Below, one piece after another: positions 2,630-8,950 of a DNA stretch of 64,000 bases (position 1 is its first letter; the number at the start of each line of letters is the position of its first letter). Source of the DNA: Aneurinibacillus thermoaerophilus (GTDB lineage Bacteria > Bacillota > Bacilli > Aneurinibacillales > Aneurinibacillaceae); assembly GCF_900099925.1 (NCBI RefSeq), contig NZ_FNDE01000002.1, positions 62,001 to 126,000 of the forward strand, in the 5' to 3' direction. The notes under the pieces were generated by a model. That model saw nothing but the letters and a program-made list of their open reading frames with translations. It did not search any database and was not told the origin of the DNA. Made by a program: the position numbers and the translations under genes.

Positions 2630-2696
2630 TTATAAAAAAAGACAGAAAGTCATATAGCCTTTGTTTCGCCTATAAGCGAATAGAGACTATATGACT
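2630..2696 (-). terminator. Terminator of the yheC/yheD operon
   Basis: Ten-base perfect arms AGTCATATAG (2648-2657) and CTATATGACT (2687-2696) enclose an inner TTCGC/GCGAA stem. On the minus strand the hairpin is followed by TTTCTG and a run of seven T residues. It lies just after the last gene of the operon. Confidence 0.85.
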
Positions 2697-2708: not shown

Positions 2709-3800
2709 TTACAAATAAGGGGAAGAAATCTGGTGTATGGCTGCGCGAATAGGCATTTCGACAGCCTTTTTATACGTTTCTATCAAGCCTGCGAGGCGGA
2801 ACAGTTCCCGGTTAGGTTTGGTATTCACTTCGATGATCCAGATTTGGCCTTTTGTATCAATTCCGATATCAATTCCAAACTCTATGAAAGAACCGAATTT
2901 TGATTCGATGTGTTGGGGCAATAATAAGCTTACTTGTTTAATGCCTTGCAGGATGCTTTCTGTTTCTTCGGGAGAAAAGCGTAGCGTAAGCAAGTTTTTT
3001 ATGGGAATAGCGCGGCCCCCGCTTTGTAAATTGGAAGTAATGAGCTGTTGTGGAGATTGTTTGCCTACGATACCGGTTATTATCCACTGTCCTACCTCAT
3101 TTTTTTGTACGAGTACACGGCTGTCACAGATGAAACCGGGGAGAAGCGCAAGATCGAGGCCTTGCTGTAAAATAAACGTGCGGCCCTGCCTTTGACACCA
3201 GAGCAGAAGGTAACGTTCGGCTGCAGGAAGAGAGCGGATCGTATTGCGGATGATGCAGCCTGTTTTATCTCTGCCGACCATCTCGAATATCTCGTGCTTG
3301 CGCTGAATACGGATGATTCCTTTGCCTCCCGAACCGTTAACTGGTTTTGCGTACAGGACTGGATATTTTCGTATTAGTTTTCCGAGTGCGCCCTGCTGTA
3401 CGCGCATTGTTTCAGGCAGATGCGGGGCGATGTCGGAATGACCACTAAAAAACTGGTGCGCGTTCCACTTGTGAGCAAAACGGCTATTTAAATAAACAAG
3501 GCGGCTTTTGTTCCGGTATGCTGCGTACTTTTTGAATATCTCAGGTGTCATGTTACTAAAGCGGTCATATACAATATCGGGAGTCCGTGTCTTTTTGGCC
3601 TCCCATTTTTTTTCTTTTTTGTCGTATGCAAATCCGCGGACGATGTTTTTTTCTTCACAAATATCAGCTGGAGAGTAAACAACGAGCTCGCAACCGTATG
3701 TTTCAGCCACGAGCGCCAAGCGAGTAAGATATGTTTTGCCAGCGATAAAAGCGCCGTTGCGATAAGTTAACACTCCGATAAGTAGTTTTCTTCCAGTCAT
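2709..3800 (-). CDS. YheC/YheD family ATP-grasp spore coat-associated protein (short, YheC type)
   Basis: A 363-residue cytosolic ATP-grasp ligase-like protein of the endospore coat-associated YheC/YheD family. Residues 1-145 form the preATP-grasp region. The nucleotide loop KPVNGSGGKGI is at about 152-162, a DSRVLVQK segment near 250, and the metal/ATP-binding IEVNTKP near 323-329. ATP-grasp enzymes form C-N bonds through acyl-phosphates; the substrate here is unknown. The start is ATG 3800, which overlaps the stop of the acetyltransferase gene (ATGA); a longer reading from 3908 would run through that gene. It is the last gene of the operon and is followed by a strong terminator. It lacks the extra N-terminal domain of the long paralogs. 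Confidence 0.88.
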   Translation of the reverse strand: MTGRKLLIGVLTYRNGAFIAGKTYLTRLALVAETYGCELVVYSPADICEEKNIVRGFAYDKKEKKWEAKKTRTPDIVYDRFSNMTPEIFKKYAAYRNKSRLVYLNSRFAHKWNAHQFFSGHSDIAPHLPETMRVQQGALGKLIRKYPVLYAKPVNGSGGKGIIRIQRKHEIFEMVGRDKTGCIIRNTIRSLPAAERYLLLWCQRQGRTFILQQGLDLALLPGFICDSRVLVQKNEVGQWIITGIVGKQSPQQLITSNLQSGGRAIPIKNLLTLRFSPEETESILQGIKQVSLLLPQHIESKFGSFIEFGIDIGIDTKGQIWIIEVNTKPNRELFRLAGLIETYKKAVEMPIRAAIHQISSPYL

Positions 3801-4261
3801 ATTGTTTTCACGTCTTCTTTTCTCCAATCTCCTGCCGCAAGCCATAATGTCGGCTTTCCGGTAACGCCGCGCACGCAGGCGAACGCAACCATTCCGATGG
3901 TAAAGCAAGTTTTTAAGCTAGCCGTATTATCGGCTGCTACCCGCACGTACAATTTGCCAAGCCGGGAGAGCGCCGCGTTCGTCAGCGCTGTTCCGATCCC
4001 CTGTTCTCTTGCTTTCTGGTGGACAACGAGAAACGATTCCTGTGTCCCATACCCATAAACGGCGATACAGCCAAGCAATTTGCTGTTTTGGGTATAGATA
4101 AGAACAATATTCCCTTCCTCTTCTAGCATTTCCGCAGGCAATGCGCGCAGCCAGCGAATGGCGCGGGCGGTGATGCGTCTATCCCCATGTACATGAATGA
4201 AACGGAGCAATTTTTCCCGTGTTCGGGAAAACAAAGCGGGAGAAAGTTCATGAATGAACAT
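3797..4261 (-). CDS. GNAT family N-acetyltransferase
   Basis: A 154-residue protein with the GNAT core: a beta-strand run around SKLLGCIAVYGYG and an acetyl-CoA-binding segment HQKAREQGIGTALTNAA (Q/RxxGxG/A pattern). GNAT enzymes move an acyl group from acyl-CoA to an amine. The start is ATG 4261 (MFIHELSP), preceded by GGGTG, and overlaps the end of the upstream yheD-type gene by 14 bases; its own stop overlaps the next start. Being sandwiched and translationally coupled between two ATP-grasp genes suggests that it modifies the same product. The substrate is not known. Confidence 0.82.
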   Translation of the reverse strand: MFIHELSPALFSRTREKLLRFIHVHGDRRITARAIRWLRALPAEMLEEEGNIVLIYTQNSKLLGCIAVYGYGTQESFLVVHQKAREQGIGTALTNAALSRLGKLYVRVAADNTASLKTCFTIGMVAFACVRGVTGKPTLWLAAGDWRKEDVKTI

Positions 4262-5573
4262 GGCGTTTTTCACCCGAAATAGCAGCGAAATTTGCCTGAT
4301 ACTGTGCGTACTCGACGATGCGCCGCAACGAAAGTTTACGGATATGGGGTTCGTCGAATTTGCCCGGTTTGGCATTTGCCTCTATAAACCAGAGACGTGC
4401 CGTCTTATCAATGCCGATGTCTATGGATATCTCCCCGAGAGTAGGCCACTCTTTTTCAAGGGATCTGGCGATACATAACGCCATAAGCCGTATGTTTGAG
4501 AGCAGCTTTTCCGCTGAGTAATCCGGAAAAGCGGCTGAAAGGATGGGGACCGGAGGCTGCACGGAACCGCCGCGTGGCACGTGAGTCGTAATTTTACCGG
4601 AGCCGGCCAGCCGAACCCCGATGCCCGTCACCCCCCATTCACCTTTTCCGTCTTTTTGCACAAGCAGACGAATGTCAAAAAGTTTGTTATCAAATGTGGC
4701 GAGGTCAATTCCTTTTTGAATTAAGTAATGCTTTTTTACGTGCGGAGCGAGATAGAACCATGCTTCTTCTTTTGTTTTAAACATTTTTCCTACTGTTTTT
4801 TTTCGTTCTTGATGTTGCACGAGATAGTTTCCGCCACTTTGACGCTGAACCCGGTAAATTCCCTGCCCTGACATTCCATTTGCCGGCTTTAGATATACGA
4901 GCGAATAGGAAGAAATCATATTATAAAAAACATCTTTGGAAGAAAGCGGGAGCGTACGTGGCAGATAGGGAAGGGTCTCGGGATTGTTCTGTAGGGCGGC
5001 GTACAATTGTTGTTTGTTAAAAAAGTGTGGGTTATAAAGCGTTAGACCGGGGGTGGCAGAAAGCTGGTTTAGTGCGGCTTTTACATGCGCTTTTCCCTCA
5101 TACGCTCGGTTTGGAATCCTGTTATAGAAAACATGCGGAAACGGAAGTTTTTCTTTTATCCATTTTTTTCTTTTTTTATCGAACAAGTATCCTCGCACGG
5201 TGCGAGAATTCCAGTCGATATTTTCCACTGGAACGACATAAACGAGCGCTCCCAGCTTTCTTCCTGTTTCGATAATATCAATAAAGTTGCTTTGTACACC
5301 GCGGAACAGACCGCCTCCTGCCACGGTTAAAATACCAATGAAAGGACCGATGGTAAGGTGTTTTTGCTGAGAACGGATTCGTACTTTTGAATTGATAGTA
5401 TGGGGGCTGGGATGCTTACAGGTGATAAGCAGTGTTTTTTTCCAGCCACCAATGCGAAGGTGTAGCTTTTTCTTTGCCAGTAGGGTGTGCGGCGCTTTTT
5501 TCGCGGAAAAATGAAGGTGCCATGTACGATGCAAGGGGTGAATGGACACCCATCCCGTCGCGATTATACTCAT
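4248..5573 (-). CDS. YheC/YheD family ATP-grasp spore coat-associated protein (long, YheD type)
   Basis: A 441-residue YheD-type protein. An extra N-terminal domain (about residues 1-75, rich in basic beta-strands) precedes the shared IGPFIGILT motif. The ATP-grasp part then carries KPANGMSGQGI, FDIRLLVQK and the C-terminal WFIEANAKPGK. In KPANGMSGQGI the glycine loop is GMSGQG rather than the GSGGKG seen in the last gene, so nucleotide handling may differ. The start is ATG 5573, four bases after the stop of the upstream gene. It pairs with the short paralog at 2709, with the GNAT gene between them. Confidence 0.88.
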   Translation of the reverse strand: MSIIATGWVSIHPLHRTWHLHFSAKKAPHTLLAKKKLHLRIGGWKKTLLITCKHPSPHTINSKVRIRSQQKHLTIGPFIGILTVAGGGLFRGVQSNFIDIIETGRKLGALVYVVPVENIDWNSRTVRGYLFDKKRKKWIKEKLPFPHVFYNRIPNRAYEGKAHVKAALNQLSATPGLTLYNPHFFNKQQLYAALQNNPETLPYLPRTLPLSSKDVFYNMISSYSLVYLKPANGMSGQGIYRVQRQSGGNYLVQHQERKKTVGKMFKTKEEAWFYLAPHVKKHYLIQKGIDLATFDNKLFDIRLLVQKDGKGEWGVTGIGVRLAGSGKITTHVPRGGSVQPPVPILSAAFPDYSAEKLLSNIRLMALCIARSLEKEWPTLGEISIDIGIDKTARLWFIEANAKPGKFDEPHIRKLSLRRIVEYAQYQANFAAISGEKRHVHS

Positions 5574-5577
5574 ATGC

Positions 5578-6669
5578 TCACCGACCCTTTCGCAACTGCG
5601 CAAGATAATGTGTATAGCGCAAAGGGTTGAGCCGTACGTCCCGGTAATATGTGCTGTTTTCGATTCGACGAAATGAAGCGCGTCCTGGCTTGGAATTCAC
5701 CTCAATCAACCAAACTTTGCCTCCCCTATCGACTCCAATATCAATGCCGAGTTCGACTAAGCGCCCGTGTTTGCTTTCTAGAAACGGTGGGAGTTCCTTA
5801 ACGATGTATTCAATATCACTATAAATTTTCTGTAACTGTTCTTCGGTGAAATATTTGTTTAGAAATGGTTTACACGAATGCGCTTTGCCGCCGCCGCATA
5901 GATTGGACGTAAGGCCGTTTACTACTCCTGCCCGAATGGCGCGCCCGGTCTCAACCCATTCGCCTTGGCCATTTTTTTGTACAAGCACCCGGATATCAAA
6001 AGGGATGCCTTCCGGTGTGGAAAGCTCTAGATAAGGCTGGGCGATCATTTTTACACTAAATTGGTTGCGTAGCCAGAGCAAGAGCGCAGTACGATTGGAG
6101 AATTTGCGGTAAAAGATTTTGTTTTTAAAATCGCGCCCTTCGACTCGATGGCTTCCTTGTTTGGAGGTGATTTTCATAACGCCGATGCCAAGCGAATTGC
6201 GCATTGGTTTAATTACGACTGCATCGTACTTGTCGAGCATGTTTTTTATTACCTGCAGCGAAGTGACAAGTTCGGTTTCCGGCATATATGCGGCAAGGCC
6301 AGCGTGCTGGATAAGTAGGTTATGGTTTTTGAGTTTATCGCCCAGCACATGTCCTAGAAAAGTAATCGAAGGATCATTTTTTAGTTTTCGGATTTGCGTC
6401 TCATACTTCTTGCGATTAGAAAGTCGATCATAGACAAAGGTGGGGAAAGGAAAGCGTCTTTTTATCCATTTTTTTTGTTTTGTATACTGGTAACCAATAA
6501 CAGTCCGGGTAACGAAATTAATCTGGGTTGGTAAAAAGACGTATACGGGCAGTCCGATACGTATCCCGGCCTGGCATAAATACGCGTAGAATGACTTTTC
6601 CGGAAATGGGTGATATTTTGTGCTTGGGGTCGCTAGGATGCCAAGATACCCCAACGTCTTTTTTATCAT
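5578..6669 (-). CDS. YheC/YheD family ATP-grasp spore coat-associated protein (short, YheC type)
   Basis: A 363-residue protein without the extra N-terminal domain, starting [14 protein letters not shown]. It has KPMRNSLGIGV at the position of the ATP-grasp glycine loop, where the usual GSGGKG is degenerate, then FDIRVLVQK and a C-terminal GIDIGVD...WLIEVNSKPGR with the conserved Glu/Asn pair. The altered loop is a possible sign of lost or changed ATP use. Its ATG at 6669 overlaps the upstream stop (ATGA), indicating translational coupling with the long paralog at 6666. Confidence 0.88.
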   Translation of the reverse strand: MIKKTLGYLGILATPSTKYHPFPEKSFYAYLCQAGIRIGLPVYVFLPTQINFVTRTVIGYQYTKQKKWIKRRFPFPTFVYDRLSNRKKYETQIRKLKNDPSITFLGHVLGDKLKNHNLLIQHAGLAAYMPETELVTSLQVIKNMLDKYDAVVIKPMRNSLGIGVMKITSKQGSHRVEGRDFKNKIFYRKFSNRTALLLWLRNQFSVKMIAQPYLELSTPEGIPFDIRVLVQKNGQGEWVETGRAIRAGVVNGLTSNLCGGGKAHSCKPFLNKYFTEEQLQKIYSDIEYIVKELPPFLESKHGRLVELGIDIGVDRGGKVWLIEVNSKPGRASFRRIENSTYYRDVRLNPLRYTHYLAQLRKGR

Positions 6670-8099
6670 GGTGATAACCTCCTTTTCGAGGAACGTTTGA
6701 TTTGCATTGTTTTTTTGCGAGGATTAGGTATATAACCGCTGCGGTAAAAACAGTAGTCGACCAGCCGAATGACAGAAGGGCGGGGCCCTTTACCGGCATT
6801 CGCCAAGGAGTTGTTTGTTTTTGAAGGTTTCGAATTGATTTCAAGCAGCCATACTTTGCCTGTTCTATCGACACCGAGATCGATGCCGAGTTCAGCATAA
6901 TGTCCTTCCGTACACTGTTCGAACAGGCGGGCGATAAGAAGCGCGTGTTGCCGGACGGAAGCAGTGATGGAAGCGCGGGCGGCGGGGGAAAAACCGGCTG
7001 CAATCAGCGTATTGCCCAACGGAAGTATAGTGCCACCGCGTGCTACATTAGAGACGATACTTTTGCAGGTGGGAGCACTTCGTCCGACAATAGATGTAAT
7101 ACTCCATTCACCGTTTTTATTTTTTTGGACAAGGGCCCGAAAGTCGACAATGCCTCCCTTGAGTTTGATTAAATGCAGTCCCTGTTGCATAAGATACGGT
7201 TGTTTACGCATACGGGAACGTAGCATTTGGTGCAGCAAGTTGAACGAGTTGTATCGCCGCGTTACCGTGTCATTGAGGGTAGCATACTGACATATATATC
7301 CATTTTGGGTACGGGACAGACGGATAATTCCGCGCCCCAGGCTTCCGCTCGAAGGTTTTAGGTAAATATAAGGATGCTTTTGCAGCATGGCTTGCAATGA
7401 AGCGGCTCCTTTATATAAATCCGTATAAGGTGTAAACGCTGCTGTTTCTGGCAGCAAGGACATACGCTGATGAATTTGCCATTTATCCAGGAACTGTTCG
7501 TTGAAAAATAGGACGCCTTTTTCTTTTAAAATCGCGATTTTTTCTTTGGTCTCCTCCCTTTCTTCAACTTTGCGTGAACCGATTCGATTGTACGTGCAAA
7601 ACGGTATAGGAAATACTCGCTTTATCCAATGACCATTGCGGTATGTCCAGCCGTTCACCATATCTTTTTCCCGCGAAATTTGATCGAGTGTGAAAATAAA
7701 GCCGAGCCCGCCGCGCAGGCGGCATGTTTGTGTCACTTCCCGACAGAAGTCGGTAATGCTGCCGAAAGGACCTTCGTCTGTTGGCACCATCCTTGAGATT
7801 AAAATACCGACAATCGGCCCGATAACTAGCCTCCTTGTTGCCGGGTGGAAGTGGAGTCCATACGCGATTTCTTCTTCTAATAGGCCGAGCCGCTGTGCGA
7901 AAGATTCTTTTATTTTTATGACGGATGAAGTCGTAATTTCAAAAGCGGCAGTTATTGTCCGCAATCCGTACATAAGTTCGAACGGTTTTTTGCCGACAAT
8001 CCCGTATTGTTTGACAAAGGAAGCCGGGAGCAGCACATCGATCGCAGCAGGAAAAGACTGGTCGGGTGTGCGCTGGATACGCGTATAACGTTGTGGCAA
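6666..8099 (-). CDS. YheC/YheD family ATP-grasp spore coat-associated protein (long, YheD type), first gene of operon
   Basis: A 477-residue YheD-type protein. About 90 N-terminal residues form an extra beta-rich domain ending in IGPIVGILI, followed by the ATP-grasp fold with [20 protein letters not shown] and C-terminal [11 protein letters not shown]. Initiation is at TTG 8099, six to seven bases after a GGGGGAG ribosome binding site. A sigma-K-like promoter lies about 40 bases upstream. With its partner at 5578 it forms the first long/short pair of the cluster. B. subtilis YheC and YheD are described as spore coat-associated; enzymatic activity is inferred only from the fold. Confidence 0.88.
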
Positions 8100-8138
8100 G
8101 GCTCGCTCCCCCTTTCCTACATCTATATATCATCCCTT

Positions 8139-8166
8139 CATCTTATGAAAAAAAGAAAGGGAGCGT
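8139..8166 (-). promoter_or_regulatory. Candidate sigma-K type promoter of the yheC/yheD operon
   Basis: On the minus strand an AC (8166-8165) is followed, after 17 bases, by CATAAGATG (8147-8139). The late mother-cell consensus is AC-N16/17-CATANNNTA, so only one position of the -10 differs. The element is about 40 bases before the TTG start of the first yheD gene. No sigma-A promoter is evident there. Confidence 0.45.
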
Positions 8167-8179
8167 GAGTATTCTCCTA

Positions 8180-8217: not shown

Positions 8218-8260
8218 AAGAAAAGATGGACAAGAAAAGAAAATAATGGAGGGTAGAAGT

Positions 8261-8950
8261 ATGAAGATTACGTATCATGGACATTCTTGCGTACAGGTTT
8301 CTCATGCGGGCAAATCTATCATTATTGATCCGTTTTTGACTGGAAACCCACTGGCGGTAACAAAAGCGGAAGATATCGAAGTGCAATATGTATTGTTGAC
8401 GCACGCACATGGCGATCATATTGGTGATGCGCTTACTATCGCAAAGCGGAACAATGCCATGATTATCGCCACACATGAATTGGCTACATACATGGGATGG
8501 CAAGGCGCAAATGTCCACGGAATGAATCTTGGCGGCGCCTATGAATTTGAGTTCGGCAAAGTGAAAATGACACAGGCGTTCCACAGTTCTGCCATTGTGC
8601 TGGAAGACGAAAGACAAATTATTTATGGTGGCATGCCGGGCGGGTTCCTCATCACAATGGGAGGCAAGACACTCTATCACCTTGGGGATACCGGATTATT
8701 CAGCGATTTGAAATTGATTGGCGAGCGAAACGATATCGATGTGGCATTTGTACCGATTGGCGACAACTTCACAATGGGGCCAGAAGATGCGTTGCAGGCG
8801 GCTGAATGGGTCAGCGCCAAGCTGACGGTTCCGGTGCATTACAACACGTTCCCGCCGATTAAGCAAGATCCGGAAGCTTTTATTCATAATCTGGAAAACA
8901 AAGGATTAAAAGGAAAAGTTGTAAATCCGGGAGAAGAATTGGAAATATAA
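8261..8950 (+). CDS. ytkL: Metal-dependent hydrolase, metallo-beta-lactamase fold (UPF0173, YtkL family)
   Basis: A 229-residue cytosolic protein with the metallo-beta-lactamase pattern: HGHSC near the N-terminus, the [10 protein letters not shown] metal motif, then HSSAI, GDTGLF and a terminal HYNTFPPI histidine. These ligands bind two metal ions in UPF0173 hydrolases; the natural substrate is not established. The start is ATG 8261 behind GGAGGG; longer in-frame starts lack a ribosome binding site. It stands alone, divergent from the yheC/yheD operon, and ends at a terminator about 100 bases downstream. Confidence 0.93.

Follow-up and report, generated by a model that had tools for sequence, protein, structure and literature searches.

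A sporulation-linked array of YheC/YheD-type ATP-grasp genes with a GNAT acetyltransferase gene in Aneurinibacillus thermoaerophilus

YheC and YheD have been listed for two decades among the spore-coat proteins annotated without a function. Iyer, Aravind and colleagues reportedly predicted in 2009 a link among YheC/D, the PF14395 amidoligases and CotE, with a role in the spore coat or wall, and the Pfam note on PF14395 (phiEco32-like COOH-NH2 amidoligases) reportedly draws the same link with YheC/D and CotE and the same coat or wall role. The Bacillus subtilis yheC-yheD pair is sporulation-linked and belongs to the PF14398 family, which is also that of the ATP-grasp proteins described here, one of which, B, falls into the YheC-type orthogroup. 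B. subtilis YheD has been described as a self-interacting, shell-forming protein, a behavior that would also fit a structural role (PMC7911427). In the open literature we found no functional study of the operon, and neither the five-orthogroup operon and its fixed GNAT nor the sigma-K-like promoter and the quantified co-occurrence reported below were found in the papers searched.

The window, a stretch of 64,000 nucleotides from contig NZ_FNDE01000002.1 of A. thermoaerophilus, carries on its minus strand five intact open frames arranged head to tail, where the sequence-only reading had placed them. These are gene A (6666..8099; long YheC/D-type ATP-grasp protein of orthogroup A, 477 aa, TTG start, PF14398 E 5e-71), gene B (5578..6669; short ATP-grasp protein of the YheC-type orthogroup B, 363 aa, E 1e-70), gene C (4248..5573; long ATP-grasp protein of orthogroup C, 441 aa, E 2e-76), a GNAT N-acetyltransferase gene (3797..4261; 154 aa, model pLDDT 94) and gene D (2709..3800; short ATP-grasp protein of orthogroup D, 363 aa, E 6e-69). 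The PF14398 scores of A, B, C and D range from 232 to 257 bits (cut-off 26.8) and the GNAT exceeds three Pfam cut-offs, in agreement with the earlier assignment of four YheC/YheD ATP-grasp proteins and one GNAT; the differing glycine loops that had been pointed out in the four proteins (GSGGKG, GSLGRG, GMSGQG, and NSLGIG) were re-read identically. With starts chosen at 8099 for A (TTG, with a strong Shine-Dalgarno), 6669 for B, 5573 for C, 4261 for GNAT and 3800 for D, the A/B and GNAT/D junctions are ATGA overlaps, B and C are separated by a 4-nt gap, and C and GNAT overlap by 14 nt. The longest-ORF starts of C (5603), GNAT (4375) and D (3908) were dropped in favor of downstream ATGs that fit the ortholog lengths. 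An intrinsic terminator on the same strand (2633..2696) lies 3' of gene D and consists of an inverted repeat with a 13-bp stem (2696-2648) followed by a U-rich tail, the hairpin folding as RNA at -25 kcal/mol (z = -6.95). The array is flanked by genes including a metallo-hydrolase (8255-8950), a tRNA methyltransferase-like gene and a CBS-domain-type gene, the last two labels being our own naming, and by an ORF (1705-2382) that matched nothing in Pfam or NCBIfam. An NhaC-type Na+/H+ antiporter gene is located downstream of the operon (138-1535); an antiporter-like gene is likewise found near the reduced yhe locus L126, perhaps by coincidence.

A tree of 229 proteins resolved five separate clades, A, B, X, C and D, with supports of 0.995, 0.78, 1.0, 0.96 and 0.97, respectively. 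The window paralogs are only 26-32% identical to the gene A protein, and the window proteins share 53-77% identity with the proteins encoded at the corresponding positions in other Aneurinibacillus species; orthologs within the family share 46-77%, and across families the median identity is 35-39% within orthogroups and 25-29% between them. The two-gene loci L126 and L127, which represent the reduced yheC-yheD form, place in clades B and X, window gene B grouping with their short gene (clade B, support 0.78). The neighbors of L126 (yheA-like, DUF445/yheB-like, SASP, epimerase, an ABC pair, and NhaC) are those of the B. subtilis yhe locus. Consequently, YheC can be equated with B and YheD with X, an equation based on gene neighbors, the comparison having included these loci rather than the B. 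subtilis protein itself. No member of clade X was found among the four window proteins or the two other PF14398 proteins of the genome, so that the window operon keeps the YheC ortholog, has no YheD ortholog, and includes A, C, D and GNAT, none of which is present in the B. subtilis-type locus. The four ATP-grasp genes of the window are thus four of five ancient orthogroups, and the earlier view of two long/short pairs as a duplicated yheC-yheD pair does not hold: the tree and the synteny rule it out. The GNAT gene, formerly seen as an insertion within a short/long pair, is instead a conserved downstream neighbor of C that has been lost in some species. The genome of the window has six PF14398 genes, four of them in the operon; the two further proteins (L042:5190-6032, 280 aa; L043:5453-6622, 389 aa) fall outside all five orthogroups.

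Across spore-forming Bacilli the array is conserved in a fixed gene order, commonly A-B-X-C-GNAT; several families, among them the window's own, carry D behind GNAT, and the gaps inside A-B-X-C-GNAT-D have medians from -4 to +11 nt. The array was observed at the same place in all seven genomes of the genus that were examined and also in the other members of the family, where one short contig shows part of it. A GNAT profile search over 399 genomes of the class, in which genome counts throughout refer to related genomes rather than independent events, retrieved 99 carriers; the gene lies directly 3' of an ATP-grasp gene in the 30 best matches (30/30) and directly 3' of an arrayed one in all 38 genomes whose neighborhoods were examined. 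Beyond the class, two families of the same phylum exhibit the order A-PF14395-B-X-C-GNAT (L144-L148). That close and distant genomes alike repeat this gene set and its order excludes chance, and the spread of the array with intact frames speaks against the concern that it might be confined to one strain or degraded. GNAT has been lost from the array in A. danicus and in strain Ricciae_BoGa-3, GNAT and D are absent from numerous arrays, and the entire set is missing in some spore formers, from which it follows that the product is not essential for sporulation. Comparison of the array neighborhoods revealed no constant substrate gene adjoining the operon, and SpoVR, NlpC/P60 and WIAG-tail genes occur near arrays only in some groups. 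Downstream of one array and on the same strand, L090:3521-7192 encodes a highly repetitive WIAG-tail-domain protein of 1223 aa, and a gene of this cluster occupies the same position in 8 loci; the protein is a possible spore-surface protein or substrate. Some variation was also seen outside the arrays, namely second GNAT copies (L117:8117-8599, L125:8264-8731), orthogroup D as a lone gene in another family (L142:7358-8476, L143:7434-8558), and some relatives of the same taxonomic order with 15-31 YheC/D genes, many more than the array holds (31 PF14398 matches in G013, 24 in G014).

The distribution of these genes follows sporulation. SpoIVA is present in 99 of 99 GNAT carriers and GNAT in none of the 131 SpoIVA-negative genomes, and PF14398 was detected in 244 of 268 SpoIVA-positive versus 19 of 131 SpoIVA-negative genomes. 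A sigma-K-like promoter (8139..8167, minus strand; CAC-N17-CATAAGATG) lies 5' of gene A. The pattern [AC]AC-N16/17-CATANNNT[AG] was found within 150 nt 5' of 45 of 52 A genes, its shuffles yielding a mean of 0.5 in 52, and in the same CATANNNT[AG] form it was absent 5' of all 165 internal B, X, C and D genes and preceded 2 of 676 flanking genes; because the loosened last base was picked after a first look, the fair count is that of the strict pattern, which precedes 32 of the 52 A genes versus none of the 676 flanking genes. The window's own site is of the loosened form. The -10 element of sigma-E resembles that of sigma-K, and a sigma-E site 5' of A was set aside as weaker than the sigma-K site in nearly all loci. 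Judging from the promoter pattern, the operon is probably switched on late in sporulation; B. subtilis YheC/YheD have been reported under sigma-E with SpoIIID, so that the timing may differ from this sigma-K-like reading (PMC517825).

A second enzyme class accompanies the array. The PF14395 COOH-NH2 amidoligase was detected in 202 of the 399 genomes, including all 99 with GNAT, in 180 of the 182 genomes with at least five PF14398 copies (copy counts in this class search having a ceiling near six per genome, at which they are lower bounds), and in none of the 136 without PF14398. In the listed set of 36 PF14395 loci, the gene adjoins PF14398 genes in 19 and is placed between cotE and mutS in 17; the latter arrangement holds for the genome of the window, where the gene (L186 7057-8517) is located between a cotE fragment and mutS. 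In two genomes PF14395 and YheC/D are moreover fused into single proteins of 870-905 aa (L187:4601-7318, L188:6647-9265). That the N-terminal 200 aa of PF14395 proteins might be a degenerate half of an ATP-grasp domain was considered and discarded, the hhalign probability being only 12%. With regard to cotE itself, the gene is split in A. aneurinilyticus (L194:4317-8848) into an N-part (aa 1-82) and a C-part (aa 78-176) about 4 kb apart, a large serine recombinase being encoded in between, and in the genome of the window (G000:C8, L186:5096-6970) only the C-part was found, beside a similar recombinase. By analogy, this arrangement resembles the skin/gin-type elements excised during sporulation; cotE is not mentioned in the gin paper (PMC5595907).

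The sequences and predicted structures point to active enzymes. The window ATP-grasp proteins have the ATP lysine, the glycine loop and the E-x-N metal site, and all five orthogroups show almost no variation in that lysine and metal site, in the D-x-R pair, or in the E and D that precede the last strand; in every orthogroup the ATP/Mg residues K188, D262, R264, E343, D347, E360 and N362 (P0001 numbering) are 90-100% conserved. Orthogroup X differs at D-x-R-x-H-x-H, which suggests that it may have a specificity of its own. The gene C model (pLDDT 94.7) found its best PDB matches in RimK, Ddl, graspetide ligases (e.g., PsnB), TTL, the glutathione synthetase GshB, and LysX/ArgX, and its predicted fold is accordingly closest to ligases joining amino acids or peptides; a PDB sequence search with D alone returned nothing relevant. 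The possibility raised beforehand, that catalytic ATP-grasp residues might be missing, is countered by the near-invariance of these residues and by the ligase-like model of C. The GNAT model has a normal acetyltransferase fold and the protein keeps the acetyl-CoA-type R-x-x-G-x-G/A loop, R85, which opens this CoA loop, and a G-x-T-G-K-P-T stretch being almost invariant. The fold search for GNAT gave only generic acetyltransferase matches, with no hint of a substrate.

We consider it reasonably probable, from these sequence features, that the operon encodes a late mother-cell pathway of amide ligases and an acetyltransferase that would build or decorate a spore-coat component. The operon, its orthogroups, the intact active sites, the restriction of GNAT to sporulating genomes and the sigma-K-like promoter are read directly from sequence, as are the co-occurrence of the amidoligase, the PF14395 fusion and the cotE synteny; from the enzyme families we infer the type of chemistry, and the order of steps, the substrate and the location of the product are equally of this inferred kind. 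The operon would most likely be expressed late, in the mother cell, under sigma-K. A, B, C and D would probably each use ATP to turn a carboxylate into an acyl-phosphate and join it to an amine, each probably with its own substrate, after which GNAT would probably acetylate a free amine for capping or tailoring. The PF14395 amidoligase, encoded beside cotE in the window's genome, would probably make one more amide bond. The product would most likely be a coat (or exosporium) protein or polymer modified with an amino acid or a short peptide, this target being suggested by the CotE synteny, the SpoIVA restriction and the behavior of B. subtilis YheD (PMC7911427). The spore-coat ligase idea of the sequence-only reading is the best available one, and that a peptide decoration of the coat is built and acylated keeps the rank of a proposal. 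In a more far-reaching and tentative version, the array of up to five ATP-grasp ligases, with the cotE-linked PF14395 and GNAT, could be a dedicated nonribosomal assembly line that gives the spore surface a new amide-linked polymer or peptide modification; such a line would have been ancestral in spore-forming Bacilli, B. subtilis having lost most of it.

Other explanations were weighed against the same evidence. That the genes result from a recent strain-level duplication of yheC-yheD, with no meaning for a pathway, has a negligible probability: shared family membership is all that favors it, against orthogroups that predate the Bacilli family tree, an identical order in distant genomes and intact frames. 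A soluble small molecule, such as a peptide-like metabolite, protectant or antibiotic made in the late mother cell or for the spore core, is an unlikely product in place of a coat modification. The nearest folds do include ligases of free amino acids or peptides (Ddl and GshB), and the GNAT model resembles acetyltransferases of small molecules as well as of proteins, but transporter or export genes do not occur as constant neighbors, the amidoligase partner lies beside cotE, and B. subtilis YheD coats the forespore (PMC7911427).

The formation of rings and then a shell by B. subtilis YheD, along with its strong self-interaction (PMC7911427), would suit YheC/D as mainly structural or scaffold coat proteins that retain an ATP-grasp fold while ligase activity is not their role. 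The near-invariance of ATP and metal residues in five orthogroups and many families, and the linkage to two other enzyme classes, GNAT and amidoligase, make this quite improbable. ATP-grasp ligases and GNAT are also the combination found in microviridin clusters, and the structural matches include graspetide ligases, PsnB being one, both of which findings count for a graspetide-like RiPP whose ribosomal precursor peptide would be crosslinked by the ATP-grasp ligases and acetylated by GNAT. We regard this as very unlikely, however, given that PF14398 is a different family, that five ligases and an amidoligase far exceed graspetide use, and that no precursor peptide gene was found within the cluster, where most gaps are no longer than 30 nt and leave no intergenic room for one. 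The coat-directed pathway of amide ligases and acetyltransferase is the reading we retain.

In comparison with known systems, microviridin-type graspetide clusters likewise combine ATP-grasp amide/ester ligases with a GNAT acting on a peptide; unlike them, the window operon has no precursor in the operon, belongs to another ATP-grasp family and is sporulation-specific. RimK, TTL/TTLL and LysX/ArgX, which add amino acids to protein carboxylates, are the best structural matches, whereas the window proteins share only 11-18% identity with them and an extra N-terminal domain occurs in A, X and C. The PF14395 systems reportedly treated by Iyer in 2009 have the same partner families, and spore-coat or cell-wall modification is said to have been predicted for them. 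The spore-surface chemistry considered here bears on resistance, adhesion and germination, and studies of the full operon, its GNAT and the amidoligase would put the function within reach of experiment and direct attention to a chemical spore modification that may have escaped work on B. subtilis. The B. subtilis-type locus, as deduced from L126, has only B and X, whereas in the window X is missing and A, C, GNAT and D are present, and the absence of most operon members from B. subtilis may explain the lack of a known product. The B. subtilis yheC-yheD pair has been reported to be controlled by sigma-E and SpoIIID, in contrast to the sigma-K-like site at the window operon (PMC517825). The window locus is the Aneurinibacillus form of an old, widespread sporulation operon of which B. 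subtilis keeps the remnant B and X.
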